A stretch of DNA of 64,000 bases. Source: Roseibium aggregatum. Lineage in GTDB: Bacteria > Pseudomonadota > Alphaproteobacteria > Rhizobiales > Stappiaceae. Below the pieces are notes generated by a model, which saw only the letters and a list, made by a program, of their open reading frames with translations, did not search any database and was not told where the DNA came from. This document shows positions 18,384 to 36,931 of this stretch, one piece after another. The stretch covers positions 62,001 through 126,000 of the forward strand of contig NZ_JABFCZ010000014.1 of assembly GCF_014692675.1 (NCBI RefSeq). The letters are read 5' to 3'. Position 1 is the stretch's first letter, and each line of letters opens with the position of its first letter. The translations under genes were made by a program, and so were the position numbers.

Positions 18384-18419
18384 GGCCGGCGGTGCCGCTA
18401 CTGCGCGGCATCGCCGGCC
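18384..18419. terminator. Long hairpin between convergent thiY and cyclase genes
   Basis: A 14-bp stem (18384-18397 with 18406-18419, one G-T pair) lies just after thiY and overlaps the last codons of the opposing cyclase gene. It has no T tract on either side, so it may act as a weak bidirectional barrier or protect 3' ends rather than terminate intrinsically. Confidence 0.45.
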
Positions 18420-20632
18420 GCTACCTTTGCGGCTTCCAGTGCCGCGATGCGCTCCCCAAAGCGGTCGTAGAAGTGCTGCAGGTGGTCGGGGGCCGCGCTC
18501 CGGCAGTCGATGAGCAGCCGTTCGGCTTTCTTCGGCTCTCCGTCGCGCAGGGCCTCCATGAGATCGGCATGCAGCCGGCTGAGTTTGCGGAACCCTTCCG
18601 ATGTGCGCAGCTTTTCGCTGCCCACGAGGGCAAACAGCCTGACGGCTTCCGACTTGCCCTTCAGCGGGATTTCGCCGGCTTCCAGATAGGCGAATTCCGG
18701 CGCCTCGTTCCGGGTCTCGTCGGAGACCAGCAGTTCTGCGCCGACTGCCTTGCAGCTGGATTCGATCCGCGACGCCACGTTCACCGCATCGCCGATCACC
18801 GAATAGTTGAAGCGTTTGTCGGAGCCCATGTTGCCGACGCAGGCCTCGCCGCTGTTCAGGCCGATGCCGATCTTTACCGTCTGGGTTTTCAGCTTGCGGG
18901 CCTTGAAGCCGAAGGCGTCTTCCTCGTTCAGCCGGTCGACGGTGGCAAGCATGTCCAGCGCGGCCCGGCAGGCGTGACTGGCATGGGCCTCGATCATCAG
19001 CGGCGCGTTCCAGAAGGCCATGATGCTGTCGCCGATGTATTTGTCGATGGTGCCCTGTTCGGCCTGGATGGCGTCCGAAAGCGGCGACAGCAGCGTGTTC
19101 AGGAAGCTGACCAGTTCGGTCGGCGTCAATTGCTCGGAAATCGGCGTGAAGCCGCGGATGTCCATGAACAGGATCGTCATCGGCCGCATTTCCCCGCCGA
19201 GCACCAGCTGTTCCGGCGAATTCTCCAGCTGGGTAACGAGGTCGGGCGAAAGATACTGGCTGAAGGCGTGACGGACGAACCGCTTTTCCCGCTCGGTGAG
19301 GAAATAGAGCAGGGCCGTAGTGACCGCAAACACCATGAAGGTGGCAAAGCTCGGATAGATCGGATCGATCAGCAGGCCGTCCTTCAGGAAGAAATAATAG
19401 GATCCTCCGATCATGGCCGCGGCGGCGCCGGCTCCGAGAAGGCCGGTGCCGATGGCGCCGATCATCGGCAGCGCCAGGATCACGACAATGCCGACCAGAA
19501 AGGTCGCAAGCGTTTCGGCGCCGTTGGCCCAGTCGGGGCGGGTCAGGTAGTTGCCGTTGATGATCTGTTCGGTTGCCTGGGCGTGGATCGTCACGCCGGG
19601 AACCAGTTCTCCGAGAGGCGTGGCCCTGATATCGCGCAGGCCGGCTGCGGAGGTGCCGACGAAGACGATCTGCCCCTCCACCAGCGGCGTGACTTCCGCC
19701 CGCTTTTCAGGGTCCAGGATATCCTTCACCGAAACATACCGTTCGGGGCGTTCATGGTCGAAATAGACCCACATTTCCCCGTCCGCCGTGGTGGGCACGG
19801 TAAATGCGCCGATCTTCACATCGGTAATGGCCGGGTTGCCGGTATCGGTCTGGCCGCTGGCGCCCGTGGTCTTGACCAGAAGCCCCTTCGCGCCCTGCGC
19901 GACCCGCAGGGCCTCGACGGCGAGGCCCGGATAAAGCTGCTTGCCGTCGGAAAAGAGCAAAGGCGCGCGCCGGACGACGCCGCTCTGGTCCTTTGCCGAC
20001 AGCGAGATGCCGCCGATGCCGCTGGCCTCGTTTTCAAGAATTGCCAGACTGGGAAGGGCGGAGGGAAACGCCGGCAGGATCTTTACCGGGTCGGTGCCGC
20101 CATAAGCGAAACCGCTCTTGCTGGCAGGCGCGCGGCCTTGCGTATCCCGCCGGGCGGCAAAGCCCAGGACCGACGGGGACTGCGCCAGGGCTGCAGCGAA
20201 GCTTTCATCGTTGTCGGGCAGCCGGTCCAGCAGGGCTTTCAGGGCTTGCGGATCCCCGGCGTCGTCCAGGGAGAGCGATTCCGTGATCCGGGTCGGGGAG
20301 GTGCGGTCCGGCTCGCTGAAAACGATATCGAAGGCGATGACGGCGGCGCCCATGTCGGTCAGCGTGGTGACCAGTTCCGCCAGCCGCGTGCGCGGCCAGG
20401 GCCATTGTCCGTACTTGGCGATGGAGGCTTCGTCGATATCCGCCACGCGGACCGGCGCGGCGGCATAGGGGCGGGGGCTGAAGCGCTGGTAATAGTCGAA
20501 AGTCAGCTCACGGACGGCCGTCACGAAATCGGGATTGATGGCGCGCAATCCGGTCGCAGCGGTCAGTCCGAGAATTGCTGCAACGGTGACCAGTGCCCGT
20601 TTCCCGGTCAGTCGTCTGACGATCCCGCGCAT
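18398..20632 (-). CDS. CHASE2-domain adenylate cyclase
   Basis: The 744-residue protein begins with a signal-anchor helix, followed by a large periplasmic CHASE2 sensor domain (about 40-330; RVADIDEASIAKYGQWPWPR, GAAVIAFDIVFSEPDRTS, IVFVGTSAAGLRDIRATPLG). Three transmembrane helices follow (about 365-440), then a class III nucleotide cyclase domain (about 480-660). Catalytic motifs are intact: ILFMDIRGFTPIS with metal-binding Asp, TIDKYIGDSIMAFW with the adenine-selecting Lys and second Asp, and FNYSVIGDAVNVASRIE. Lys and Asp at the purine-contact positions predict ATP as substrate. It is a stand-alone gene convergent with thiY. Its cAMP could serve CRP-type proteins, including the cNMP-fold protein at 29-31 kb, but that link is only inference. 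Confidence 0.9.
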   Translation of the reverse strand: MRGIVRRLTGKRALVTVAAILGLTAATGLRAINPDFVTAVRELTFDYYQRFSPRPYAAAPVRVADIDEASIAKYGQWPWPRTRLAELVTTLTDMGAAVIAFDIVFSEPDRTSPTRITESLSLDDAGDPQALKALLDRLPDNDESFAAALAQSPSVLGFAARRDTQGRAPASKSGFAYGGTDPVKILPAFPSALPSLAILENEASGIGGISLSAKDQSGVVRRAPLLFSDGKQLYPGLAVEALRVAQGAKGLLVKTTGASGQTDTGNPAITDVKIGAFTVPTTADGEMWVYFDHERPERYVSVKDILDPEKRAEVTPLVEGQIVFVGTSAAGLRDIRATPLGELVPGVTIHAQATEQIINGNYLTRPDWANGAETLATFLVGIVVILALPMIGAIGTGLLGAGAAAAMIGGSYYFFLKDGLLIDPIYPSFATFMVFAVTTALLYFLTEREKRFVRHAFSQYLSPDLVTQLENSPEQLVLGGEMRPMTILFMDIRGFTPISEQLTPTELVSFLNTLLSPLSDAIQAEQGTIDKYIGDSIMAFWNAPLMIEAHASHACRAALDMLATVDRLNEEDAFGFKARKLKTQTVKIGIGLNSGEACVGNMGSDKRFNYSVIGDAVNVASRIESSCKAVGAELLVSDETRNEAPEFAYLEAGEIPLKGKSEAVRLFALVGSEKLRTSEGFRKLSRLHADLMEALRDGEPKKAERLLIDCRSAAPDHLQHFYDRFGERIAALEAAKVAAGDAAQ

Positions 20633-24220: not shown

Positions 24221-25561
24221 TTGACCCGGTTTTTGCGATATCTGCCGGTTGCCATCGGGTTTTTATCGGCCGCTGCGCTGCCGGGCGAGGCGGGCGCGAT
24301 GGGGCTTGGGCGACCGGAGCCGATCATGGGGCCGCATGCGGCGGATCCGGGTCGCTCAAGAGAGATCATCGAGCTGGGCTCGGAGCAGATCATTCCGCCG
24401 CAAACCCCAGAGCAGGCGGCCTTCATCGCCAAGGTCTGCACGAAGATCGAGGCCGCGGCCGAGGCCTATGCATTGCCGCCGGCCTTTCTGGCGCGGCTGA
24501 TCTGGACCGAGAGCCGGTTCGATCCGGATGCGATCAGCCCGATGGGGGCGGAAGGCATCGCCCAGTTCATGCCGGCAACGGCGAAGGTCTGGGGCCTGGA
24601 AAATTCCTTTGAGCCGATGACCGCGATCGCGGCGTCCGCCAATCTGCTTGGGCACCTGTGGAAGGGATACGGCAATGCCGGTCTGGCCGCAGCCGCCTAT
24701 AACGCCGGGGAGAAGCGCGTCGATGCCTGGTTGAGGGGCCGTTCGGGGCTGCCGGGCGAAACCCGGGGCTACGTCTACGCCATCACCGGCCACAGCGCCA
24801 ATGACTGGAAAAAGAAGAACCCGCCGGACGTCCGTTTCGTCCTGGACGAGGCCCGGGACTTCCAGGAAGCCTGCAACGACTATCCCCAGATCAAGGCGCC
24901 GGCGCAGCGCCGCTTCGCCAATCGGTATTTCAATCTCGGCCTCGCCCTGACGGCCAAGAAGGACTACGAGGCGGCCATCCTCCGCTACACGGTCGCCATC
25001 CGCCTGAAACCCAACTTTCCGGACGCCTACAACAATCGCGGCATCATCTACCGCAAGACCGGAGACTACGAGGCGGCGATCCTGAACTACGATGCCGCGA
25101 TCCGGCTCAAGCCGACCTATGCGGCCGCCTACAACAACCGGGGCTATGCGAAACGCAAGCTCGGCCGGTTTGAGGAGGCGATTGCCGATTACGACCAGGC
25201 GATCAAGCTCAAGCCGAACTATACGGCCGCGTTTTTCAACCGTGGCTTTGCTCACGCGAAACTCGGGAATTTCAGCCAGGCGATCGCCGACTATTCCCGT
25301 GCGATCAAGGCGCAGCCCGGAAACGCGCTTGCCCTTTACAATCGCGCCCTTGCCTATCAGGAAACCGGGCAGCATGGGAAAGCCCTGAACGATCTGGACA
25401 AGGTCATTGCCGCCAATGACGGCTTTGCGCGGGCCTATTTCCAGCGCGCGACGCTTTTGAAGCGGCTCGGCAAGGCCGAGCGGGCCCGGGCGGATTACCG
25501 GGAGGCTGTCGCCCTCAACGCCGGCTTTGCCGAAGAGCGGTTCCGCAAGCTGTTCGACTGA
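24221..25561 (+). CDS. Lytic transglycosylase (SLT domain) fused to tetratricopeptide repeats
   Basis: The 446-residue protein starts at a TTG (24221). That start gives a complete signal peptide (RFLRYLPVAIGFLSAAALP) behind a GAGG ribosome-binding site; the next ATG, 24300, would remove it. Residues ~75-185 are a family 1 lytic transglycosylase: catalytic Glu in LIWTESRFDPDAISPMGAEG, then GIAQFMPATAKVWGL and AAAYNAGEKRV. Residues ~220-440 hold about six TPR units (YFNLGLALTAKKDYEAAILR, AYNNRGIIYRKTGDYEAAIL, AFFNRGFAHAKLGNFSQAIA). It should cleave peptidoglycan in the periplasm while the TPRs bind partners. The fusion is less common than either domain alone. It ends 26 bp from the convergent cytochrome gene. 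Confidence 0.87.
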   Translation: MTRFLRYLPVAIGFLSAAALPGEAGAMGLGRPEPIMGPHAADPGRSREIIELGSEQIIPPQTPEQAAFIAKVCTKIEAAAEAYALPPAFLARLIWTESRFDPDAISPMGAEGIAQFMPATAKVWGLENSFEPMTAIAASANLLGHLWKGYGNAGLAAAAYNAGEKRVDAWLRGRSGLPGETRGYVYAITGHSANDWKKKNPPDVRFVLDEARDFQEACNDYPQIKAPAQRRFANRYFNLGLALTAKKDYEAAILRYTVAIRLKPNFPDAYNNRGIIYRKTGDYEAAILNYDAAIRLKPTYAAAYNNRGYAKRKLGRFEEAIADYDQAIKLKPNYTAAFFNRGFAHAKLGNFSQAIADYSRAIKAQPGNALALYNRALAYQETGQHGKALNDLDKVIAANDGFARAYFQRATLLKRLGKAERARADYREAVALNAGFAEERFRKLFD

Positions 25562-25587: not shown

Positions 25588-28254
25588 TCACGGCAATTTG
25601 GTCTGGACCAGCGGCTTGCCGAATTCGGTCGCGTGGTAATTGTGGCAGAGCGTGCAGGTCTCGCCGGCGGCTTCATCCGTATGGCAATCGGTGCACATGT
25701 TCTTTTCGATCGGGCTGAACGTCGGCGAGAAGACGGCCGGATTGTCGCCTTCGTAGGTCTTCAGATAGGTATCGGGAGCGGGGTCCAGTTCGTGGCAGGT
25801 CCGGCATCCCTTTTCGCCCACGGCGTCGATATGGGGTTCGTGGGAGAACTTGGTGAAGCGGTCCTTCACCCGTCCGGAGTTGAACGGCTTCCATTTGACG
25901 TGCTGTGTCCCGCTTTCGTCGTCGACGCTGTGGCACTTGGTGCAGCGCCCAACGGCATCGGGCGAGGAAAGCTGGTTGAAGACCGGCGCCAGCATGCCCT
26001 GCCGCTCTGTGCCAAAGGCGGTCCCGGTATAGTCGAGCCAGCTGCGCAGGAAGCGGTCGGCGTGGCCCATCGGGCGGTAGCGGATCGTGAAATCCTGCCG
26101 GTACCAGCCGCCGAGCTCCGCCCAGGTTTCCGGATTGAAATGTGCCTGTTCATGTTCGGCTGAAGGCTGGTCGGTATCCGAAGCCGGTACTTCCAGTCCG
26201 CCGCCGCCGGTGTCGCCGGACAGAATATCGCCGTTCGAACTGTCCGGGGCTCCTGCGTCCTCGCCGGCCCCGGCAGGCTCGCTGAGAAGACCGGCTCCGA
26301 TCTCGTCGGCCCCTGCCGGCTGGCTGAGAAGGCCGGCTCCGTCCTCGTCTGCGCCCGCCGGCTGGCTGAGCAGGCCGCCACCGTCCTCGTCGGCCCCTGC
26401 CGGCTGGCTGAGGAGACCGGCCCCGGCCTCGTCTGCGCCTGCCGGCTGGCTGAGGAGACCGGCACCGGCCTCATCGGCCCCTGCCGGCTGGGTGAGCAGA
26501 CTGCCACCGGCCTCGTCCGCCCCGGCAGGCTGGCCAAGCAGATCCGCGCCGCTGTCGCCGGACCCGGAAAGATCGTCGGAAGAGCCCAGGATGTCTCCGT
26601 CCGAAGAGGACTCATCGCCTCCCAGGATCGACCCGCCATCGTCACCCTGTCCGGTGGAAGATGCGGATGCGTGTTCTGCTGCCTCCGCTGCTGCCTTCGC
26701 CTTTTCGGCTTCTTCCTGGGCTTTCGTTTCGGCTTCTTTCTGCTGGGCTTCGAATTCGACGGTCGGCAGGCCTTTGTCGTGTTTTTCCAGATCGTCCTGC
26801 AGATTGGGGAACCAGTCGCGGTTGGCAGAGGCGATCACGTCATGGGAAATCAGGCCGGTCAGGTAGGACATGTCCAGCCGGTCCATATCCGTGCCTTTGT
26901 CATCGGACGGCATGTGCATCGCCTTCATGATGCCCTGGTTCTCGAACCGGGCGAACAGGCCTTTGACCGACCACGCAAATTTCGCGACATTGGCCAGATC
27001 CTCGTCGCTCGCGTCGGTCAGGTCGAGCAGGTCGAGTTTGGCGATCGGGTCGGCCACGCTTTTTCCGGATTTGTCCTTCGCCAGCAGGGCCTTCATGAAG
27101 GCGGTCAGCCGGGCTTCCGAATACTCGGGCCAACTGCCGATATCGATATGGCGTTCCTCCAGGGTCGCAACATCGAGACCCGGAACGGCGAGGAAATTGA
27201 TGCCTTTGGGACCGCTGACGCGCGTCGTGCCGAGGATATCGCCCTCGTGACAGCTGGAGCACATGGTGTCGAAGGACCGGACTTCCATGTATTTCTGGTC
27301 CGCGCCCGGCTGGTGACAGTCCATGCAGGTGCCCGGTACCGAGGCGGGCGCCGTTTCCGCTGCCTTCGGGAAATGGGTGCCGAAGTGGGACTTGTGGTCG
27401 AAAATGATCCGGGTTCGCCGGTTGAACGGGTAATTCGTGAATTGCGGATGCGTGTTCACGAATTCCCCGAATTTCGAGACATGGCAGGTCTGGCAGCGGA
27501 GATTGGAGACCGTGGTGAGACTGTGGACGCCGCGCTCGTGTTCCTGGTGGCAGGTGGCGCAATAGATCTCGGTTTTCCCGGAAGCCTGTTTCGGCGGAGC
27601 GAAGGATATCCGGTGGACCCAGCTGTCGTTCTGGATCGTCTTGCCGTCCGGGCCGTCATTATACGCGGCGGTCAGTTTCTCAAGCCGTTCGACCGGGTTG
27701 GTATGCGGCGAAAAAGGCGCATTGCCGACGTTATGGCAGGCGACACACAGGTTGGCGTTTTCCTTCGCGCTGGTGCTTGCGGCGAAGCTGTGCAGCCATC
27801 CGAGCTTGTCGGCCTTGACGCCGGCGTGGCAGGCGTCGCAATTCGTCAGGCTGGCATGGGATGAGGAGAGTGGCCCCGGCATCAGGAGCCGGCCCGCCTG
27901 ACTGCTCGCGACGATCAGCACCACCAGGCCCACGGCAAGCGCGGCTGCCCAGCGGGCCATGCGGCCCCGTCTGGTCCGCAGGCTCGGCTGGGGAACGCAA
28001 GGTTCCTGCTGCTGGCAGCAGCGTCCGTCCGGAAGCGGACCGCTTTCGCAAGGCCCGCCTTTCAGCTGCGAACGGGTGCAGCGCCAGCGTCCGTCGACCA
28101 GATGCGGTTTGCAGGCCGCCGCCGCGCCGCATTTGCCGTGCATGTCCGGGCCGAGCGGGCAGGGCTTTCCCTCCGCCAGGTGTCCGCAAACCCACTTGTC
28201 CTGCGGGCGCTGGTAGGGGCTGTCTCGAAAGCCGAATTTCTGCAGGACGGTCAC
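25588..28254 (-). CDS. Decahaem c-type cytochrome with cytoplasmic Cys-rich N-terminal domain and 14-residue repeats
   Basis: The 888-residue protein has ten CXXCH motifs: six in the N-terminal half (CDACH, CVACH, CATCH, CQTCH, CMDCH, CSSCH) and four near the C terminus (CTKCH, CRTCH, CTDCH, CTLCH). A single transmembrane helix at about 102-118 separates them from a 100-residue N-terminal domain with nine cysteines (23, 32, 42, 48, 59, 69, 79, 80, 86) that would sit in the cytoplasm. Between the two haem blocks lies a coiled/charged stretch and a low-complexity Gly/Asp/Ser/Leu region with seven 14-residue repeats. It is the last gene of the cluster, one base after the b-type membrane protein. 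It is probably a membrane-anchored periplasmic electron carrier; partner and acceptor are unknown. I know of no characterised homologue. Confidence 0.88.
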   Translation of the reverse strand: MTVLQKFGFRDSPYQRPQDKWVCGHLAEGKPCPLGPDMHGKCGAAAACKPHLVDGRWRCTRSQLKGGPCESGPLPDGRCCQQQEPCVPQPSLRTRRGRMARWAAALAVGLVVLIVASSQAGRLLMPGPLSSSHASLTNCDACHAGVKADKLGWLHSFAASTSAKENANLCVACHNVGNAPFSPHTNPVERLEKLTAAYNDGPDGKTIQNDSWVHRISFAPPKQASGKTEIYCATCHQEHERGVHSLTTVSNLRCQTCHVSKFGEFVNTHPQFTNYPFNRRTRIIFDHKSHFGTHFPKAAETAPASVPGTCMDCHQPGADQKYMEVRSFDTMCSSCHEGDILGTTRVSGPKGINFLAVPGLDVATLEERHIDIGSWPEYSEARLTAFMKALLAKDKSGKSVADPIAKLDLLDLTDASDEDLANVAKFAWSVKGLFARFENQGIMKAMHMPSDDKGTDMDRLDMSYLTGLISHDVIASANRDWFPNLQDDLEKHDKGLPTVEFEAQQKEAETKAQEEAEKAKAAAEAAEHASASSTGQGDDGGSILGGDESSSDGDILGSSDDLSGSGDSGADLLGQPAGADEAGGSLLTQPAGADEAGAGLLSQPAGADEAGAGLLSQPAGADEDGGGLLSQPAGADEDGAGLLSQPAGADEIGAGLLSEPAGAGEDAGAPDSSNGDILSGDTGGGGLEVPASDTDQPSAEHEQAHFNPETWAELGGWYRQDFTIRYRPMGHADRFLRSWLDYTGTAFGTERQGMLAPVFNQLSSPDAVGRCTKCHSVDDESGTQHVKWKPFNSGRVKDRFTKFSHEPHIDAVGEKGCRTCHELDPAPDTYLKTYEGDNPAVFSPTFSPIEKNMCTDCHTDEAAGETCTLCHNYHATEFGKPLVQTKLP
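26248..26541 (-). repeat. Seven tandem 42-bp repeats inside the decahaem cytochrome gene
   Basis: The repeats encode seven near-identical 14-residue units of the form LLSQPAGADEAGAG, with changes mostly at positions 3-4 and 11-14. They are in frame and lie between the two haem blocks. Tandem units this similar in DNA should vary in number between strains. Confidence 0.93.
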
Positions 28255-28255
28255 G

Positions 28256-29092
28256 TCAGGCTATCCCGGTCGAAAAGGCGTAGGCGACGATGACGTGAAT
28301 GACGATCACCACCACCAGCGCGTAGGTTGGGGGGATATGCAGAAACAGCCAGAGCTTCAGCAAGCCGGCGTTGGCATAATGAAAGTCGAGACCGTTTTTC
28401 GCTTCGACCAGTTCCCGCAACCGCTCCAGCCGGGCCTTGCCGTCCTTGTCGAGGTAGCGCTCGATTGAATCGAGTTCTCCCTGAAGCCGGGTCAGCGGCA
28501 GCCTGGAGGCGCGCAGATGGGCAAGGATATTGCGCGGGCGGGCGAAAAACGGACCGAGCAGGTCGTTATAGAGCTTGGCGATGCTTTGGGTGTTGCCGTC
28601 CTCCACGGACTCAAGCGCCACGGCCTCGGCTTCGGCGGCGAGCTGTGCCCGGAAGACGGGAATGCGTTCGAATATCAATCGTTCGCCATAGGATTCCAGC
28701 CGCGTCGGTAAGGTCTTGCTCATCCAGGTTCCCACCAGCCCGCTGACTGCGACGAGGATGAACAGGCCCCACAACAGCCATTCCAGCGGTGTGTCGGGAA
28801 GCTGGTAGCGGGTGTGGGCGAGGAAAATGCCCAGGACCACGAACCCGAGATAGATGTGCACCAGAAGCCAGAACCGGACACGTCCGAACGGCAGGATCAC
28901 GACGCGCTTGCGCAAGGTGAGCAGCATCATTACCGCCATGCAGCCCAGAAGAAGCCAGCCGTTGAAGTACTGGACATCGCGAAGCGATACGTCGTAGCCG
29001 AGATTGCCCACCAGAAACAGCGCGTAGGCCACGGCCGCGAACAGGAGGTTGAGGAGCACACGCTTGTCGAAGAACCAGTTCAGCCAAGCCAT
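28256..29092 (-). CDS. Integral membrane protein, probable di-haem cytochrome b-like subunit
   Basis: The 278-residue protein has about five hydrophobic helices (about 12-30, 44-60, 72-94, 105-124, 246-272) and a soluble helical insert (about 130-235). Histidines 79 and 93 (LLVHIYLG, LAHTRYQ) and 252 and 266 (FLHIPPTY, VIHVIVAY) form two pairs each 14 residues apart, the spacing seen for haem b ligands in cytochrome b561 and ferric-reductase folds. This is suggestive, not proof. The gene overlaps the upstream Fe-S gene by 13 bp and is one base from the decahaem gene, so translation is coupled. It may pass electrons across the inner membrane between the ferredoxin-like protein and the cytochromes. 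Confidence 0.75.
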   Translation of the reverse strand: MAWLNWFFDKRVLLNLLFAAVAYALFLVGNLGYDVSLRDVQYFNGWLLLGCMAVMMLLTLRKRVVILPFGRVRFWLLVHIYLGFVVLGIFLAHTRYQLPDTPLEWLLWGLFILVAVSGLVGTWMSKTLPTRLESYGERLIFERIPVFRAQLAAEAEAVALESVEDGNTQSIAKLYNDLLGPFFARPRNILAHLRASRLPLTRLQGELDSIERYLDKDGKARLERLRELVEAKNGLDFHYANAGLLKLWLFLHIPPTYALVVVIVIHVIVAYAFSTGIA

Positions 29093-30786
29093 TTGAGCAA
29101 CTTCTCGGTATCGCGGATGTTGGTTCGGGTCAGCGCATCATGCGGACAGGCCTGGACACAGGCCGGGCCGGTGAGCTGATCGGAGCAGAAATCGCATTTG
29201 GTCGCCCGGCTGATCACTTGTCCGTCGTTGTCGCGGACGAGCGCGCCGGTCTCGTCGCGAATGTCGACCATGCGGATGTTGTTGTAGGGGCAGGAATTGG
29301 CGCAGGTCGCGCAGCCGATGCAGATCGAATCGTCGATGACCACCACGCCGGTGTTTTCGGTCCGGTGAATGGCCCCTGTCGGACAGCCGATCAGGCAGAC
29401 CGGGTCGGTGCAATGCATGCAGGCGTTGGCGATCATGGCGTTTTCGAAGGAATAGCCGTGCCGCACGAACCGGGGATTGTAGTCATGGGCGGTTGCGCAG
29501 GCGCGCACGCAGTCGTCGCAGCCGACACAGCGGTCCAGATTGATCACCATGGCGTTTTCGCCGTTGATGAAGCGGTGATCGACGACGAAATCCATCATTC
29601 CCTGGCGCATTTCCTCCTGACGGCCTTCCGCTTCGGAGGAAAGGCCCTTGTTCAGGAATTTTGCGGGAAGACCGGGGAGCACATGGCTTCGGATCAGGTG
29701 CGTCGGTATCCGGATCACATCGACATAGCCGATGGCGCGCAGGCTCACATTGAGCGTCATGCCGCCGGCGCCGTTTTTTTCCGAGGCCGCGATTTCGTCG
29801 AGCCCGAACGTGTCGTTGCGCGACAGGTGGCTGACCGTTCTCTCGCCGTGATCGATTCGTTCGCTGACCCGGGCGAAACCGCTGTTGATCAACAGCAGCC
29901 CGTCGAGATGGTTCCCCTCTTCGCAGATCAGGGGCTCGTGCTCGATGACGTGCCCGGTTCCGGCCTGCCGGGCGATTTCGCGTTTGAACCGGTGCGTCCA
30001 GTCGAAGTTGCCGTAGGTCTCGAACAGGGACTGGCGGGCGATTTCATGGAGCTTGTCGCGGCTGACATGGTCGAAGACCGGGCATTCCTGCAGCCGGGTC
30101 AGCAGTCCGCGTTCGTGATAGAGCGTGTCGATCCGCTGCCGGAAATGTTCCGACCAGTTGCGGATGTCGCGCAAACCCTGCCAGCGCAGTTCGAACAGCA
30201 CCGTATCGTCCTGGAAAGCGAAGACGCTTGCGCTGCGCAGGCTGCGCGTCAGGGCGGCCAGTTCGCCGAACATTTCCGGCGCTTGAAGGGTGAATGCCGA
30301 ATCCTGGCCTTCCAGCGTTTCGATATCGACCTTGCCCAGTTCGCCGAGGTCGCTTGCTTGCGGTGCGCGGGCTTTCCACCTGCTTCCGGCTTTCCGGCGG
30401 GTCTTGCGGTATTCCGCAGGCTTGCGCCGCGCCAGCAATTGTCGGAGCGAGCGGGACCAGGATTTCCGGCTCCGGGATCCGGGCTTCGTATAGCCGGCCC
30501 CGGCAGCCGGAGACGACAGGCCGATCACCTTGCCTTCCAGGATCGCGAACAGGGAATTGCCGTAGTCGCCTTTCCGGATGATCACTTCGCCACGATTGAA
30601 ACGCCGGATGCGGCCGTCGTTTGCGATGATCTGGTCGAGCGGCAGCCAGTCCGGGAAGTCGCCCGCGTTGACGCCGGCGAATGCCGGCAGGGCGAGGATG
30701 CGCGCAATGGCTTCCTCGTCCAGCGGCTCCTCGCCGAAGGGTTCATCCCAGCGCTGGTTGCGCTCGTCGCGGAGTTCCGGATCCAA
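29080..30786 (-). CDS. Tandem cyclic-nucleotide-binding fold protein fused to a four-[4Fe-4S] ferredoxin domain
   Basis: The 568-residue soluble protein has two cNMP-type beta-barrels (about 50-205 and 235-370) and a C-terminal polyferredoxin. In the first barrel, GNSLFAILEGKVIGL and the phosphate cassette FGELAALTRSLRSAS keep the Glu and Arg expected to hold cyclic nucleotide, but a basic 70-80-residue insert (about 91-168) splits it. The second barrel has lost these residues. There is no DNA-binding helix-turn-helix. Sixteen cysteines (420-430, 456-468, 489-499, 531-547) make four clusters like those of DmsB/HybA-type subunits. It may gate or relay electrons in response to a nucleotide signal. 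Proteins with this architecture exist but I know no function for them. Confidence 0.85.
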   Translation of the reverse strand: MDPELRDERNQRWDEPFGEEPLDEEAIARILALPAFAGVNAGDFPDWLPLDQIIANDGRIRRFNRGEVIIRKGDYGNSLFAILEGKVIGLSSPAAGAGYTKPGSRSRKSWSRSLRQLLARRKPAEYRKTRRKAGSRWKARAPQASDLGELGKVDIETLEGQDSAFTLQAPEMFGELAALTRSLRSASVFAFQDDTVLFELRWQGLRDIRNWSEHFRQRIDTLYHERGLLTRLQECPVFDHVSRDKLHEIARQSLFETYGNFDWTHRFKREIARQAGTGHVIEHEPLICEEGNHLDGLLLINSGFARVSERIDHGERTVSHLSRNDTFGLDEIAASEKNGAGGMTLNVSLRAIGYVDVIRIPTHLIRSHVLPGLPAKFLNKGLSSEAEGRQEEMRQGMMDFVVDHRFINGENAMVINLDRCVGCDDCVRACATAHDYNPRFVRHGYSFENAMIANACMHCTDPVCLIGCPTGAIHRTENTGVVVIDDSICIGCATCANSCPYNNIRMVDIRDETGALVRDNDGQVISRATKCDFCSDQLTGPACVQACPHDALTRTNIRDTEKLLKWLG

Positions 30787-30797
30787 ACCGACTGCCC

Positions 30798-31817
30798 TCA
30801 GTTCGATACCGGTCCCTTGTACTTGTCCGGACCGGGTATGTATTTGTCGATGGCGCCGAAGGTCGTGCCGTCATAGGTGTCGGAAAATTTCAGCCCCAGA
30901 ACCGAAACCTTGCCGGCCGCCTCGGTCAGCTCGGCTTCATTGTTGAGTTTCAGCTTTGCCTCATTGGCGGCCTTGTAGATTTCGACCAGTTCGGGCGCGT
31001 CCGGCAGCAGCTTGGCGAGGCTGGCAATCACCTTGCGGGCGTTGTCGGCGCGTTTCGCCATCTTCAGCGCATAATCCGCCTTCTCGGTCGCCTTGCTGAC
31101 GCCGATCAGGGCGGTTTCCAGTTCAACGATGCGGCCAACGACGAACAGCATACGCTTGCGTTCGATGGAATCTTCCCGGTTGCTCGCACCCTTGTTGTAC
31201 CAGTTGTTGTGGCGCACTTCGCCCTGCGACCAGCTCACCAGTTCGAACGGACTTCCGGCGGCATGACCGCCGACATTGACCAGCTTCTCGTTCGGCACGA
31301 GGTGGCAGCTGAAGCAGTTCTTGGCCAGCGTATAGGTCATTTTCGGCCGGATCATCCCGGCCGCTTCAGCCTTGGCCCAGCGGGCGGCGACTTCCTCGGG
31401 CGTCTCCTGGCCTTCCTTCTTGCCGCTGAAGCCGGAATGCACCTTGTACCAGTTCTTGCCGGCCGAGTGGCAGGACTCACAGGAAATGCCGGCGATGACA
31501 TCGGGCTTTGAATTGACCGTCTGGGTGGTGAAATGGCAATTCAGGCAAAGGCTGTCCGCCTTGAGCCGTTTGACGCCCATTTTTTCCGCGATTTCCTTGG
31601 CTTCCTTGCTCTGAGGCAAGCTCCGGTAGGTGGCGAAATGGTGGGTCTTCTGCCAGACCGCAGCCTCAGCCTTGTGACACTCGGCGCATTCGTTCGGACC
31701 GACGACGAGATCCGGGTCGATAGCCATGGCCGGCGCCATGAATGCGGAGAAGAACAGCGGGACGGCTATTACAGCCAGCCAACGCCACCGTGCTGGAATC
31801 AAACGTTTCATACTCAT
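30798..31817 (-). CDS. Tetrahaem cytochrome c, cytochrome c554-like
   Basis: With the ATG at 31817 (AGGACGG ribosome-binding site) the protein is 339 residues with a signal peptide ending near FMAPAMA-ID. Frame upstream of this point runs through the reductase gene and is a shadow. Four CXXCH motifs are present (CAECH, CLNCH, CESCH, CFSCH), with histidines nearby for bis-His ligation (KTHHFATYRSL, KVHSGF, GGHAAG). The spacing resembles cytochrome c554-type proteins of nitrifiers. The C-terminal third is a haem-free helical domain rich in Ala and Lys. It should be a soluble periplasmic carrier linking the other cluster members. It lies 11 bp before the Fe-S gene. Confidence 0.88.
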   Translation of the reverse strand: MSMKRLIPARWRWLAVIAVPLFFSAFMAPAMAIDPDLVVGPNECAECHKAEAAVWQKTHHFATYRSLPQSKEAKEIAEKMGVKRLKADSLCLNCHFTTQTVNSKPDVIAGISCESCHSAGKNWYKVHSGFSGKKEGQETPEEVAARWAKAEAAGMIRPKMTYTLAKNCFSCHLVPNEKLVNVGGHAAGSPFELVSWSQGEVRHNNWYNKGASNREDSIERKRMLFVVGRIVELETALIGVSKATEKADYALKMAKRADNARKVIASLAKLLPDAPELVEIYKAANEAKLKLNNEAELTEAAGKVSVLGLKFSDTYDGTTFGAIDKYIPGPDKYKGPVSN

Positions 31818-31870
31818 TTTACCGTCCTGTTTCTCAAATGAATTACGAAATCTGAAAATCGTCGCCAGGC

Positions 31871-33154
31871 TCAGGCATCGAGGACAATGTCCCCGTCCGG
31901 GCAGGCGATACACACGAGAGCCGTTCCCTTGGCGGGCTGGCTCGTCGGAGGTGTAACGTAGGTGACCTTGCCTTCCTTGACGGCTGTCGCGCAGGTGCCG
32001 CAGTTGCCGGCACGGCAGCCCGATGCAATCTGAACGCCGCATTCTTCTGCGAGGTCCAATAACGTTTCCGCAGCTTCGCTCCAGGGAACCGACTTGTTGG
32101 AACGGGCGAAGCTGACGGTCGGCGCTTCGCCGCCGCTCGCGCTGCTTTCCGCCGCAGCGGCCGGGGCCGCCTTCTTGACGGACGCGGGCCCGAAGGCTTC
32201 GAAACGGATATCTTCCTCCGGAACGCCCCATTCCTTCAAGCTGGTGGTCACGGCGTTCATCATGGGCGGGGGGCCGCAGATGTAGAACTCGAAGTTCGAC
32301 GTCTTGAGGTAATCCTTCATCACGTCGATGGAGAGATATCCGGCGCAATCGCAGTTCTTTGCTGCAACGTCGTCATCGGCCGGGTCGCTGTAGAGAACGA
32401 CCAGATGGAAATTGCTGTTGTTGCTGATGATTTCGCGGATTTCGTCGATGCAGGCGATGTCCTCGCCATTCCTGACGGCGTAGAAAAACCAGGCTTCCCG
32501 ATGGCTGTTCGTGTCGGCAAGCCACTTGAGCATGGACAGGACCGGCGTCAGGCCGACGCCGCCGCCGATCAGGGCAACCGGCCGGTCCGAATGAACGTCC
32601 AGGTGGAATTTGCCGTTCGGCGCCATGACGTCGATAACGTCGCCTTCCTTCACATTGTTATGGAAGAAATTCGACGACAGGCCCGGCGGAACGCCTGGTT
32701 CGGCCGAAGGGGGAGGGCCCAGGCGACGGACTGAAATCCGGTAAAAATCGCGATCCTCCGGGCTCCCGGAAAGCGAATAGCACCGCACGACAGGGCGAGG
32801 CTGATCGGGGATATTCAGTTCGAAGGTCAGAAACTGGCCCGGGAGGAACGGTGGAAGAGACCCGCCGTCGTGGGGCTCCAGGTAAAACGAGCAGATATCG
32901 CCAAGCTTGTTTTCAAGCTGGCGCCTGACGACACGGAATTTCCGTTTGCCGGACCAGGTCAAGACGTTGCGCTGCCGGTCGGTTTCAGCCCGCTTGATCA
33001 GGATGTCGGTCTGCTTCTTGAAAAATGCCAGCCGTTGCTGATCCATGTGGCGCTTGCGCAGAGCGCCGGCGAATTGCGTGATCATGCCGGCGCCGGCCTG
33101 AAGCAGCGCCGCGATCACGATGAATCCGCCACCGATCTGGAGCGCCAGTATCAT
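31871..33154 (-). CDS. Membrane-anchored FAD/NAD(P)H oxidoreductase with C-terminal [2Fe-2S] ferredoxin domain
   Basis: The 427-residue protein begins with one transmembrane helix (about 2-24) and a basic linker. The ferredoxin-reductase fold follows: FAD motif RCYSLSGSP, NAD(P) motif GGGVGLTPVLSML and the C-terminal CGPPPMMNAV. A short Ala/Ser linker joins a plant-type [2Fe-2S] domain (GCRAGNCGTC and a distal LVCIACP cysteine). The domain order is that of Hcr- or phthalate-reductase-type enzymes, whereas NqrF has the iron-sulphur domain first. It should take electrons from cytoplasmic NAD(P)H into the cluster. The gene sits between the barrel and the tetrahaem cytochrome and shares their strand. 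Confidence 0.88.
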   Translation of the reverse strand: MILALQIGGGFIVIAALLQAGAGMITQFAGALRKRHMDQQRLAFFKKQTDILIKRAETDRQRNVLTWSGKRKFRVVRRQLENKLGDICSFYLEPHDGGSLPPFLPGQFLTFELNIPDQPRPVVRCYSLSGSPEDRDFYRISVRRLGPPPSAEPGVPPGLSSNFFHNNVKEGDVIDVMAPNGKFHLDVHSDRPVALIGGGVGLTPVLSMLKWLADTNSHREAWFFYAVRNGEDIACIDEIREIISNNSNFHLVVLYSDPADDDVAAKNCDCAGYLSIDVMKDYLKTSNFEFYICGPPPMMNAVTTSLKEWGVPEEDIRFEAFGPASVKKAAPAAAAESSASGGEAPTVSFARSNKSVPWSEAAETLLDLAEECGVQIASGCRAGNCGTCATAVKEGKVTYVTPPTSQPAKGTALVCIACPDGDIVLDA

Positions 33155-33197
33155 CGTACGCTCCTCGTCTTACGCATGGCTTTTGGCTTTGCGAACA

Positions 33198-34667
33198 TTA
33201 GAACCGCGTCCTCAATTCCAATCGCAGCCCGGTTCCCGTGGTCTGGTTCTGGCCTTCGGAAACAAAGCCATCCAGCTGAATGCTGCTGCGATTGTTCAAA
33301 GCGTGCAGCAACTGCCCGCCGAACGCAATAGCGCCTGTATTCGAGCCGTCGGTATCCTTCCGTCCGCCCAGTTCCAAAGTTAACTGAGTCTTGTCCTCGT
33401 TGAAGAACATCTGGTAGCCAAGCGCGCCGCCGACCACATCATTTGCCTGGTTCGACAGCGCCGAGCCGGCCATGCCGACGAGCGGAGACGCAAAAAGAAT
33501 CCCGGCCTGGCCGAGCGGACCGCCGGTATTGGGCCCGCGGGCTGCAGAAGTATAGTTCTCGATGCCCCAGAAGGCGTTCGCATAAACGAGGTTTTCGGAC
33601 CCTGTCACGGTCCTCGAAACTTCGGAAAACAGCACAACGCCGCTATTGACCGCCGGGCCTTTGTTGTTGATTGCCAGGGAGCTGTTGATGCGGAACGAGG
33701 TGTTGAACTGGCCGATGCGCTGGGTAGCGGAGGCGCCGAGGAACAGTCCGTCACCACCCTGGGGGTTGGTGCTGATGACATAGGACCCATCCAGGTCGAC
33801 CGTGCTCCAGCGAAAATCGGTTTCCGTGAACAGACCCAGGAGATAGGCATCGGTGTCGCGGAGGTTGTCGGCGCGGTTGATGTTGCCCCAGCCGAACAGC
33901 GCCGTTGCGCGCATGTCAGGGCTCAGGCCGGGGATCACGATCGTATCGCGGGTAATCCCGATGGCATCGATCGTGTCGTTGATCATGATGCCTTCCTGGA
34001 AGAAGATCGGCTGGCGGCCGATGGCGAAGCCGAAATCGAGACCCTTGTTGTCGTTGGGATCGAGGTCGGGGAAGATTTCGCCGAATTCCCCTTCGAAAAA
34101 CAGCGTGTTGATATAGGGATTGAGGCCGTTGACGAAATTGGTCCCGGTTGAATTGGTGTGGAGGATACCGGTTTGCTGGTTGCCTTTCGTGAACGGCGTG
34201 ATTCCGAGCAGGATGCGTTCGGTCGGCGACAGCTTGAGATTGAAGAAAAGATCCAGCCGGGTGGCAATGTACTCCCGGCTTTCCGAGCGGCCGTTGTCAT
34301 AGTGGCCTGCCGCGTTGCGCCAGTTGCCGAAGACCCAGAGACCGGGTTGCCAGACGGCGCCGGTGGGCAGGGTATAGCCCGGTTCGATGTTTCCCTTTGC
34401 CAGGAACTTGTCGCCCCTTTCGACGATCGGCGGTGTCGGCTTGGGTTCGTTTGCTTCCGTGAAAAGCGGCTTCGATTTCGTCGGCAGCTTGCTGCTGTGA
34501 TGAGCCCCGGACCGTCCCTGCGCCTTGTGGACCTGTTCTTCGGTCAACATGGGACGGGGTTCTTCACTCAACGCGCTGCTGCTGGCGGCGAAGCTCTTGC
34601 CCCCCAGAGCTGTAAAAGACAGCGCGAAACAGAACAGGACCTTGCCGATGCGCACGTTGTTCATCAC
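33198..34667 (-). CDS. Outer-membrane beta-barrel protein of the cytochrome cluster
   Basis: The 489-residue protein has a signal peptide (ending near KSFA-AS) and, after a flexible basic/Pro-rich segment, many alternating amphipathic strands such as GLWVFGNWRNAAGHY, TRLDLFFNLKLSP, RATALFGWGN, NTSFRINSSLAI, TQLTLELGGRKD and SSIQLDGFVS. It ends in LELRTRF, the aromatic C terminus used for BAM-mediated insertion. No haem motif is present. In a cluster with three multihaem cytochromes it could play the role of the porin in porin-cytochrome conduits, although I see no MtrB sequence signature. It could also be a specific substrate channel. It lies 14 bp after the pentahaem gene. Confidence 0.78.
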   Translation of the reverse strand: MMNNVRIGKVLFCFALSFTALGGKSFAASSSALSEEPRPMLTEEQVHKAQGRSGAHHSSKLPTKSKPLFTEANEPKPTPPIVERGDKFLAKGNIEPGYTLPTGAVWQPGLWVFGNWRNAAGHYDNGRSESREYIATRLDLFFNLKLSPTERILLGITPFTKGNQQTGILHTNSTGTNFVNGLNPYINTLFFEGEFGEIFPDLDPNDNKGLDFGFAIGRQPIFFQEGIMINDTIDAIGITRDTIVIPGLSPDMRATALFGWGNINRADNLRDTDAYLLGLFTETDFRWSTVDLDGSYVISTNPQGGDGLFLGASATQRIGQFNTSFRINSSLAINNKGPAVNSGVVLFSEVSRTVTGSENLVYANAFWGIENYTSAARGPNTGGPLGQAGILFASPLVGMAGSALSNQANDVVGGALGYQMFFNEDKTQLTLELGGRKDTDGSNTGAIAFGGQLLHALNNRSSIQLDGFVSEGQNQTTGTGLRLELRTRF

Positions 34668-34681
34668 CCCCTCATAGCCCC

Positions 34682-36931
34682 CTAGTCGATCCGGACTTTT
34701 GACCGGCGCGTCCAGAGGACGGAACTTCCACGCACGATTTGCCGCGCAATCTGGGCAGGGCTCATGCCGTAGTCAAAGCCTGCCCCCTGAATGGCGGCGA
34801 TGAGATTGACCGGCACCATCTGGGAGATCAGGCTGACCGAAATCGAATAGGTCTCCCCGGGCTTCAGCCTGTCGGCCGGTATCTTGTAGGTGGCGGTGCG
34901 GCTGGAGTTCGGATCGATCGTCTGCTTGTGCTTGCGTGCGCCGCGCGGGCGCCCGTAGATCGTCGTCGCGCGCGGCTCGGGACGGACGAAGGGCAGCACA
35001 TCGGTCGAGGTGTTGATCGCAAGCACCTGTTCGCGTTCGCCCCCGCGCAGCATGCGGACCAGGAATTTGGACTGCAGGCTGAACAGATCCTTGTCGAGCG
35101 GCAGCTCGCCGTTGTGGACGTAAAGAGAGTGGGAATCGCGGACATCGCCGTTCGGATCCCGGTCGCCGGAGACGTAGATGATCTTTCCGTGCCGGTCCTT
35201 GACCGTCACCTTCAGGAAGATCAGCCGTTCGGCATCGAAACCGGTCGGCACCGAATGGCCGTCGGTGCCGTTGCGCACATCCACCGAGAATTTCAGGCCG
35301 TTCCGGTCGCTCTGGAGGATGCTGATGTCGCTCAGCTTGAAGCCGTTGCGCAGGACCTGTTCGCGCAGCGTCCGCATTTTCGCCAGACGTTCGAACTGGA
35401 CCTTGAGAATTGCGCGGGCATCGTAGCGGTCGTCGATGGACTGCCAGGCTTTCGGGAACTTGTAGCTGTCGGAAACCTTGTCCTCGAACTTGTCCGTTCC
35501 CCAGCCTTCCCAGTACCTGAACTGCAGCCATTCGCGCAGTGTCTTGAACTCGGCCGCCTCGACATTGTGCGGGAAAATGCCCGGGTGAATGATGGAGTAA
35601 TCCGGCCCGGCGAAGGAATGGTTGGTGAGCTTGCGGTTCTTTGTGGGCACATCGCCGACGACGGCCGCGGGACCATAATCGTAGCCGGATGCGACGCCCT
35701 GGATCCTGCCCATGTGGCAGTCCTGACAGGTTTCGCCGCGCTTGGCCGCCGGCGTCTGCTTGAATTCGGCAAACGCTTCCTCGAGGCGGAAACCGTTCAA
35801 GAGGGTCACGTCATGACAGGTTCCGCAGAAGCTCGGTTTTGTCAGAGTGAAGAACTTCTTGGCCTGGGTATGGATGCTGCGGCCGGGATCGTCTCTCGAC
35901 GTGGAGACCCGGTATTCTTCCGGATGGTTCAGGACCCGGGAGAGTTCCTTGTTGCCCGTCGGACCGTAGACCGGGGAGAAAATATCGCCCTGCTGCAGGG
36001 CAAATCGGCCGCTGATCTTGCCGTAGTTCTTGTTGACCCGGTGACAGGCCACGCAGGTGATCCCCTCGCGCGACGTGGGCGTCCGGTCCAGGTTGGTCAC
36101 GTAGAGGGATTCGCCCAGGTTCATGCCGACCGGATTGTGGCAGCGGATGCAGAAATCGCCGTTGGTCGCGCTGGTCTTGATGTTGATGGCGGTCTGCATG
36201 GCCATATAGACCGGGCTCAGCTGAGCGTAGGCATGCTGGGAACCCGACCATTGTTCGTACTGGCGCGGATGGCAGGTGGCGCAGGTGTTGGCCGAAGGAT
36301 ACTTGCTTTCCAGAAACAGCTTCTCGTGCGCGTCATTTGCGGCCTGCTGCGTGACCGCCGGCTCTTTCTTTTTGTTCTCTTCCGCCGTTTCCAGCCCGCC
36401 GCCGCCGGGCAGAAGGAGGTTGTCCTCGTCGCTCGGCTGGAGCAGGTCGTCGCCGCCTCCGCCGGCGTTCAGAAGATCGTCGCCGCTTCCACCGCCGCCC
36501 GAAAGCAGGTCATCGCCGCCGCCGTCACTGGAATTGAGGAGGTCGTCGCCGCTGTCGGCGGGCGCCGCCAGGAGATTGTCGCTGTCGCCGCCTGGAAGCA
36601 GATTGTCCGAATCCGGTTTTGCCGTGTCGTCCGGCGTGTTCAGGAGCGTGTCGTCCGATGACTTGTCCAGAAGACTGTCGTCCTTGGCAGCCGGATCCTC
36701 CAGAAGCGGATCCTGATTGCTCTGGGCCAGCACGATCGGGGCGTTCTTGCGGCGGTCGAGGCCGGAAACGTAATTTTCCAGCTGCGCCACGGCATCGGAG
36801 CGAAGGCCGTGATGGATGGGCAACGAGGCGGGTTCGGCTGCCGACGGATTTGGCAATACCGCGCTGAGGGCAAGCAGTCCGCCAACAGACAAGTGAATGC
36901 AGCGGAACCGGTATCCGAAAAAAGTGATCAT
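34682..36931 (-). CDS. Pentahaem c-type cytochrome with DxLL repeats
   Basis: The 749-residue protein has a signal peptide or anchor (about 1-32, ending NPSAA-EP), a DxLL-repeat region (residues 74-180), then a cytochrome c554-like domain with five CXXCH motifs (CATCH at 217-221, CIRCH, CVACH, CGTCH, CQDCH). A haem-free C-terminal domain of about 250 residues follows (LSDISILQSDRNGLKFSVDV, TGFDAERLIFLKVTVKD) that may be a beta-sandwich. It is the first gene of the cluster and should be exported to the periplasm, possibly attached to a membrane. Its role is probably electron transfer or reductive catalysis; some multihaem proteins of this type are oxidoreductases. I cannot name a substrate. 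Confidence 0.85.
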   Translation of the reverse strand: MITFFGYRFRCIHLSVGGLLALSAVLPNPSAAEPASLPIHHGLRSDAVAQLENYVSGLDRRKNAPIVLAQSNQDPLLEDPAAKDDSLLDKSSDDTLLNTPDDTAKPDSDNLLPGGDSDNLLAAPADSGDDLLNSSDGGGDDLLSGGGGSGDDLLNAGGGGDDLLQPSDEDNLLLPGGGGLETAEENKKKEPAVTQQAANDAHEKLFLESKYPSANTCATCHPRQYEQWSGSQHAYAQLSPVYMAMQTAINIKTSATNGDFCIRCHNPVGMNLGESLYVTNLDRTPTSREGITCVACHRVNKNYGKISGRFALQQGDIFSPVYGPTGNKELSRVLNHPEEYRVSTSRDDPGRSIHTQAKKFFTLTKPSFCGTCHDVTLLNGFRLEEAFAEFKQTPAAKRGETCQDCHMGRIQGVASGYDYGPAAVVGDVPTKNRKLTNHSFAGPDYSIIHPGIFPHNVEAAEFKTLREWLQFRYWEGWGTDKFEDKVSDSYKFPKAWQSIDDRYDARAILKVQFERLAKMRTLREQVLRNGFKLSDISILQSDRNGLKFSVDVRNGTDGHSVPTGFDAERLIFLKVTVKDRHGKIIYVSGDRDPNGDVRDSHSLYVHNGELPLDKDLFSLQSKFLVRMLRGGEREQVLAINTSTDVLPFVRPEPRATTIYGRPRGARKHKQTIDPNSSRTATYKIPADRLKPGETYSISVSLISQMVPVNLIAAIQGAGFDYGMSPAQIARQIVRGSSVLWTRRSKVRID
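36392..36712 (-). repeat. Ten DxLL repeats inside the pentahaem cytochrome gene
   Basis: Residues 74-180 contain ten acidic Leu-Leu units in a row (DPLL, DSLL, DTLL, DNLL twice, DDLL four times, DNLL) separated by 5-13 residues of Gly, Ser, Asp and Pro. Similar units (GSILGG, GDILGS, ADLLGQ) precede the 14-residue repeats of the decahaem cytochrome in the same cluster. Confidence 0.9.

Follow-up and report, generated by a model that had tools for sequence, protein, structure and literature searches.

A stretch of 64,000 nucleotides from Roseibium aggregatum (NCBI RefSeq assembly GCF_014692675.1, contig NZ_JABFCZ010000014.1, positions 62,001 to 126,000; hereafter the window) carries seven minus-strand genes in one tight run, from position 36931 down to 25588, in the order G7, G6, G5, G4, G3, G2, and G1 (Table 1). 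The cytochromes G1, G4, and G7 contain 10, 4, and 5 CXXCH haem-binding motifs, respectively. Our count confirms the seven-gene run and the total of 19 motifs given by a first-pass annotation of this sequence, against about 3 motifs expected over the whole window. G5 lies upstream of G4 with a gap of 53 bp, and G3, immediately before G2, overlaps it by 13 bp. Among the NCBIfam models listed (the best 25 for G3 and G5), none reached its cut-off for the cluster proteins.

Table 1. Features of the window discussed in the text (aa, amino acids; TM, transmembrane; cNMP, cyclic nucleotide monophosphate; FAD, flavin adenine dinucleotide; pLDDT, predicted local distance difference test).
Feature	Positions	Strand	Description
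G7	34682..36931	-	749-aa pentahaem c-type cytochrome; 5 CXXCH
G7 residues 59-184	36380..36757	-	repeated D-x-L-L motifs; pLDDT < 50
G6	33198..34667	-	489-aa outer-membrane beta-barrel, ~18 strands, OprD/AlgE-class fold (model)
G5	31871..33154	-	427-aa reductase, FAD + NAD(P) + C-terminal [2Fe-2S]; Pfam FAD_binding_6, NAD_binding_1, Fer2
G4	30798..31817	-	339-aa tetrahaem cytochrome, c554-like; 4 CXXCH, PF13435
G3	29080..30786	-	568 aa, two cNMP-binding-type domains + four [4Fe-4S]; Pfam cNMP_binding, Fer4 families, PF13247
G3 residues 173-190	30217..30270	-	phosphate-binding cassette of first cNMP domain
G3 residues 420-547	29146..29529	-	16-Cys region for four [4Fe-4S]; HycB3-like
G2	28256..29092	-	278-aa inner-membrane protein, probable di-haem b (PCC4 'IMP')
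G1	25588..28254	-	888-aa decahaem cytochrome; 10 CXXCH
G1 residues 1-100	27955..28254	-	Cys-rich head (8 Cys) preceding TM-like segment
Tandem repeat	26256..26542	-	42-bp unit, 6.8 copies; codes LLSQPAGADE-type repeats of G1 linker (Tandem Repeats Finder)
SLT transglycosylase + TPR protein	24221..25561	+	convergent with G1, probably not part of the cluster (Pfam)
CHASE2 + class III nucleotide cyclase	18398..20632	-	4.9 kb beyond G1; Pfam CHASE2, Guanylate_cyc

The layout of the cluster matches PCC4, a putative porin-cytochrome conduit proposed from genomes by He et al. in 2017 (PMC5566968). As described there, PCC4 comprises a porin, cytochromes with 4, 5, and 10 haems, and an inner-membrane protein that has five TM helices and contains SGXXG and two copies of WX3HX13H. 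In its Subgroup II, a pfam13247 Fe-S gene lies upstream of the inner-membrane protein gene, and redox genes lie upstream of the tetrahaem gene (PMC5566968). In the window, G6 is the porin-type barrel, the CXXCH counts of G4, G7, and G1 are those of the three cytochromes, and G2 contains W75-x3-H79-x13-H93, SGLVG at residues 117-121, and W248-x3-H252-x13-H266. G3, with PF13247, precedes G2, and the reductase gene G5, with its FAD, NAD, and 2Fe-2S domains, precedes G4. None of the tested features differs, the match being made on the features described in 2017. By its layout, the cluster can be assigned to PCC4 Subgroup II, an already named but predicted conduit, and the first-pass statement that it has no recognised counterpart does not hold. 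The named holders of PCC4 include marine Alphaproteobacteria and Planctomycetes (PMC5566968), and PCC4 receives one mention in a metagenome paper of 2026 (PMC13264449). Our literature searches found no experimental test of PCC4, and a characterised system with a known substrate did not emerge as a match, PCC4 itself being a prediction.

In G2, which by eye seems to have five TM helices, the motif Trp, His, and Gly residues (the latter in S-G118-x2-G121) are invariant across 23 aligned sequences, and the Ser varies. A PDB profile search with G2 returned no relative, the single match having an E value of 0.06. G5 has a hydrophobic N-terminus (by eye) and four conserved cysteines, C380, C385, C388, and C415. 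G3 contains 16 conserved cluster cysteines, and the closest PDB profile match of its Fe-S region is HycB3 of the hydrogen-dependent CO2 reductase (7qv7_A, E 8.5e-24). The best solved relatives of its cNMP domains are the cGMP- and cAMP-dependent kinases, and cNMP_binding is present in all 28 members of the G3 alignment A1. In the cassette of the first domain, the conserved residues are G174 (110/110 sequences), E175 (109/110), R181 (110/110), and R184 (105/110). We take this Gly-Glu and Arg pattern to be the phosphate-binding cassette motif of cyclic-nucleotide domains that bind ligand.

The three cytochromes differ in architecture. G1 consists of an eight-Cys head, one TM-like segment, six haems, an acidic linker, and four haems. 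All eight head cysteines are present in 62 of 66 sequences, and the TM-like segment follows the head in 66 of 66. The head is presumed to be cytoplasmic, because arginines precede the TM-like segment. Ten conserved non-motif histidines of G1, the candidate distal ligands, are found in 66 of 66 sequences, and four candidates of G4 in 65 of 65. G7 offers its five haems six conserved His positions outside the motifs, and each of these is retained in 40 to 42 of 42 sequences. This supply of histidines would be sufficient for bis-His ligation of every haem in the three proteins, and a candidate distal His on every haem of G1 and G4 would suit a wire rather than a catalyst. The closest solved structure to G4 is cytochrome c554 (1bvb, profile E 2e-13), and the net charge of G4 is positive in 56 of 67 sequences, with a median of +10. 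G7 has a signal-like N-terminus, a disordered acidic-Leu-Leu (acidic-LL) stretch, a pentahaem core, and a C-terminal beta domain. Its closest solved structure is penta-haem cytochrome c552 (5ze8, profile E 2e-16, Foldseek E 7.2e-12); the mean pLDDT of the G7 model is 68, and the pentahaem part is of middling confidence.

Acidic-LL motifs recur in both G7 and G1. With a wider pattern picked after the sequences were seen, the disordered stretch of G7 contains 5.75 motifs versus 0.99 in shuffles (n=32; 20 above their own shuffle mean), and the G1 linker contains 4.39 versus 0.94 (n=51; 31 above their own shuffle mean). With the narrower pattern [DE].LL, G7 is above shuffles (2.83 versus 0.39), and the G1 linker is not (0.89 versus 0.74). 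The counts in G1 and G7 covary (Spearman 0.65 over 23 loci with both, the loci being related), and we regard the repeats and their covariation as a lead. A possible use of these repeats is the electrostatic capture of the G4 shuttle, given its mostly positive net charge.

Parts of the cluster resemble other known systems. The decahaem cytochrome plus outer-membrane barrel is a logic shared with MtrAB, MtoAB, and PioAB, and by profile the haem region of G1 weakly resembles chain 6r2q_A (E 7.3e-5), which we take to be an MtrABC entry although the label shown reads otherwise. Unlike the corresponding proteins of these systems, G1 has a TM-like anchor, a Cys-rich head, and a 6+4 arrangement of haems. 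The sheathing barrel MtrB has 26 strands, and the G6 model has about 18 long strands as counted on its DSSP string. MtrB is absent among the G6 fold matches listed, which is uninformative by itself and was not used, and a PDB profile search with G6 found no relative. The barrel gene stands beside the pentahaem gene as in ExtHIJKL of Geobacter, and the G7 core matches the c552 of Thermochromatium tepidum (PHC fold) by both profile and fold. One paper places ExtKL, Gsu2801, and cable-bacteria pentahaems in one group, remarks that they are structurally homologous to c552, and cites a link with the cytochrome nanowires of archaea (PMC11976967). G7 was rejected as an ExtKL (NF040886) equivalog, scoring 39.4 bits against a cut-off of 250, and it differs from ExtKL in its long acidic disordered stretch, its C-terminal beta domain, and its six other partners. 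The inner-membrane protein of PCC3 likewise has five TM helices and two HX13H motifs, according to the 2017 paper (PMC5566968). The DmsE-type, OmcA/MtrC-type, NrfH, and octahaem families were also rejected, with NCBIfam scores under cut-off, and the consulted part of the Thioclava electrotropha paper (PMC9226611) yielded no counterpart of the cluster.

We then consider how widely the cluster occurs. A search with an alignment of G3 relatives found 440 relatives on genome contigs; the 80 best of them, together with three relatives from the genus, make up the 83 loci scored (two of them, L019 and L072, from one genome). All seven genes are present in 44 of these 83 loci, and 21 of 83 have the exact order of the window; among the 38 loci that have long flanking sequence at either end, 27 contain all seven. 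The genes thus co-occur in the neighbourhood search that the first-pass annotation had suggested, and the idea that the cluster is unique to this genome can be discarded. The clusters are spread over at least six phyla. By record titles, collinear loci include Tistlia, Ferruginivarius, Nitrospinota, SAR324, Planctomycetota, Latescibacterota, Zixibacteriota, and Gammaproteobacteria, and they are mostly metagenome-assembled genomes (MAGs); the carriers include the named isolates Tistlia consotensis and Ferruginivarius sediminum and a Roseibium strain. The other gene orders point to movable modules: the block G4-G3-G2-G1 is usually intact, and G7-G6 and G5 are relocated, inverted, or not observed. 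G3 was found in 4 of 37 genomes of the genus, including that of the window, and the cluster is therefore an accessory system.

The haem numbers are nearly fixed. Among complete open reading frames, 10 motifs are present in 67 of 76 G1 matches, 4 in 65 of 69 G4 matches, and 5 in 39 of 43 G7 matches. A Planctomycetota sample of 392 genomes yielded G3 in 35 (E <= 1e-80), and after removal of 3 matches already in the first set and 5 with the C-terminal part only, a second set of 27 stretches was obtained, in which every uncut gene listed has the 5/4/10 haem motifs. The records L097 and L098 are the same as L018 and L037; they were excluded from the locus, cassette, acidic-LL, and distal-His counts and included in the conserved-Cys alignments of G3 and G5 and in the G4 charge count. 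Three Planctomycetota loci (L109, L113, and L114) have a tandem pair of pentahaem genes ahead of the barrel gene.

Recurrent neighbours of the cluster were surveyed without a target, and since the cyclase and glutamate dehydrogenase were picked afterwards, the P values given here are not those of planned tests. Glutamate dehydrogenase (scoring 150 bits or more, or with E <= 1e-40) adjoins the cluster at differing positions in 8 of 82 loci (L015, L017, L018, L019, L022, L053, L058, and L078), versus 0.35 expected. In five of the eight genomes, the adjoining gene is the sole such match, and in the Roseibium loci glutamate dehydrogenase is not beside the cluster. This enrichment agrees with a connection to NAD(P)H or to ammonium, without fixing the direction of electron flow. 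Three other neighbour families tie at ten loci each: a class III nucleotide cyclase, a thiamine-pyrophosphate enzyme, and an ABC ATPase. The thiamine-pyrophosphate enzyme (acetolactate-synthase-like) is found near the cluster in L027, L036, L042, L046, L050, L058, L065, L078, L081, and L087, mostly in Alphaproteobacteria MAGs.

The cyclase is the nearest of the three tied families, with a median distance of 239 bp. Cyclases adjoin the cluster at differing positions and have different input domains: CHASE2 in L020, L033, L084, and L092, 7TMR-DISM in L023, and FHA in L105. In genomes with six or fewer cyclases, a clear close cyclase is found in 7 of 36 loci, versus 0.42 expected (P 3e-7). A first test on 44 loci (43 counted) chosen with knowledge of the positives had given 9 versus 2.21 expected, and 7 of 21 versus 0.29 in low-copy genomes. 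In the second, Planctomycetota set, fetched as a test of prediction and not free of kinship, a cyclase adjoins 8 of 27 loci, versus 0.40 expected, and in six of the eight positives it sits between G7 and G4, with G5 absent. In L105, L106, L107, L108, L110, L111, and L112, the cyclase gene is divergent from G4, and the reductase gene G5 was not found; the FHA-type cyclase of L105 is the only one scanned.

From these parts, we infer the order of the carriers, the outward direction, the gating, what the acidic-LL repeats and the Cys head do, and the nature of the acceptor. On balance, we lean towards a PCC4 Subgroup II trans-envelope conduit that would carry electrons from NAD(P)H outward, with a cyclic nucleotide probably gating or tuning the flow. 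NAD(P)H would reduce the FAD/[2Fe-2S] reductase G5, which would hand electrons on to G3, the polyferredoxin hub on the membrane's inner face. From G3, electrons would move to the di-haem b protein G2, cross the inner membrane, and reach the membrane-anchored decahaem G1, from which the small, mostly basic tetrahaem G4 may ferry them to the outer membrane. There, the pentahaem G7, together with the barrel G6, would deliver them to an external acceptor, and a cyclic nucleotide bound to G3 would probably gate or tune the flow. In general bioenergetic terms, NAD(P)H- and ferredoxin-type modules are of low potential, and an inside-negative membrane favours outward electron flow. Outward flow is favoured because the cytoplasmic modules are of this low-potential type and nothing in the cluster looks able to drive electrons uphill. 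The parts themselves, their co-occurrence, the near-fixed haem numbers, the conserved cNMP cassette residues, and the over-represented neighbours (cyclases, in cyclase-poor genomes, and glutamate dehydrogenase) all support this reading. The first-pass proposal of an NAD(P)H-fed path from the inner membrane to the surface is thus supported by anatomy and conservation and stops short of proof. A more specific version is less likely than not: cyclic nucleotide on the first cNMP domain of G3 would directly open or close the outward flow, the acidic-LL repeats of G1 and G7 would capture G4, and some lineages would make the ligand with a cyclase beside or inside the cluster.

Several observations weigh against the gated outward conduit. 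Over all loci, the cyclase excess is modest: a clear close cyclase is found in 9 of 82 loci versus 3.69 expected from per-genome counts (Poisson P 0.013), or in 12 of 82 when three weaker matches are added. The cyclase of L097, just past the end of L018, is outside the nine counted. Cyclase-rich genomes have no excess, with 2 of 46 loci versus 3.27 expected, an expectation that is a lower bound for the two genomes with at least 60 cyclase matches. Because the signal over the 82 loci comes from low-copy genomes alone, we lowered our estimate for gating. Most loci show no clear cyclase (73 of 82 in the first set and 19 of 27 in the second), though contig ends truncate many of them, and seven of the eight positives of the second set have a common layout and may be a single lineage. 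In the window, the nearest cyclase is the CHASE2 type 4.9 kb from G1; a sigma-70-type factor is among the genes in between, and this cyclase is one of 15 matches in the genome. Among the other carriers of the genus, a cyclase is found in the corresponding place in G018 and about 8 kb from G3 in G003, and none is near in G017, so that in the window itself the evidence for a link between cyclase and cluster is weak. Within G3, R184 is absent in 5 of 110 sequences, and the Arg at position 350 in the second cNMP domain is retained in 73 of 110. At seven Planctomycetota loci, G5 was not found next to the cluster, and six of these loci retain the remaining six genes. Finally, with 18 strands, the barrel modelled for G6 might not be wide enough to enclose a cytochrome.

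These points also bear on a rival to the gating part only, in which the cNMP domains are structural relics without ligand and the cyclases are neighbours for unrelated reasons. Loci without an adjoining cyclase being the majority, the absence of an excess in cyclase-rich genomes, and the weaker conservation of the second cNMP domain all speak for relics. Retention of the cassette Gly, Glu, and Arg in 105 to 110 of 110 sequences from many phyla is harder to reconcile with them, as are cyclases with CHASE2, 7TMR-DISM, and FHA inputs at differing positions, and we would give the relic explanation slightly less than an even chance. A separate rival concerns direction. He et al. proposed inward flow for PCC4, from an extracellular donor such as Fe(II) to quinone, having detected it in genomes of Fe(II) oxidisers (PMC5566968); the donor could also be Mn(II) or a cathode, and the electrons might reach NAD(P)+. 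The genome of the window has a strong RuBisCO match (465 bits), and within the genus, matches of at least 400 bits occur in 3 of 4 carriers versus 7 of 33 non-carriers (one-sided Fisher P 0.052, uncorrected for kinship). A Labrenzia strain, which may or may not carry the cluster, is reported from a biocathode that consumes electricity (PMC4866846). Across the 74 carrier genomes, RuBisCO reaches at least 400 bits in 6 and has no match in 51, counts that rule out a strict tie to the Calvin cycle, and the cluster appears to have no pump-like part to push electrons uphill to NAD(P)+. We consider inward flow unlikely.

A soluble acceptor offers another alternative, in which G6 would be a substrate channel and G7 a periplasmic reductase of a nitrogen oxide or a small oxyanion, partly along the lines discussed for ExtI and ExtKL of Geobacter with selenite and tellurite, with the adjoining glutamate dehydrogenase assimilating ammonium. 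The modelled G6 fold belongs to the substrate-channel OprD/AlgE class, G7 has 39 bits to ExtKL and matches pentahaem c552, loss of ExtI is reported to reduce selenite and tellurite reduction (PMC5877670), and glutamate dehydrogenase is enriched among the neighbours. With six conserved non-motif histidines available for the five G7 haems, an open catalytic haem is not evident, and the ExtKL score is far under the cut-off. This reductase explanation, including its ammonium step, seems improbable to us.

PCC4 is a widespread and already named predicted conduit. Its spread over many phyla and its closely kept 5/4/10 haem numbers suggest a frequent way, under strong constraint, of wiring metabolism to the outside of the cell. 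The evidence for a cyclic-nucleotide input and for a glutamate/NAD(P)H link goes beyond the main text of the 2017 paper, which contains no words beginning cNMP, cAMP, cyclase, or nucleotide-binding (PMC5566968). If cyclic nucleotide does switch G3, this would be a direct, non-transcriptional control of envelope electron flow.

Two other features of these genomes were observed. A second multihaem locus in the genome of the window, on contig C119 (L093, 7592-10138), encodes an 848-residue c554/HEAT/TPR protein, and its four scanned neighbours include no conduit parts. The SLT transglycosylase plus TPR family next to G1 also adjoins G1 in three other carriers of the genus (L015, L094, L095, and L096 are listed), and such an enzyme could open the peptidoglycan for a trans-envelope complex.

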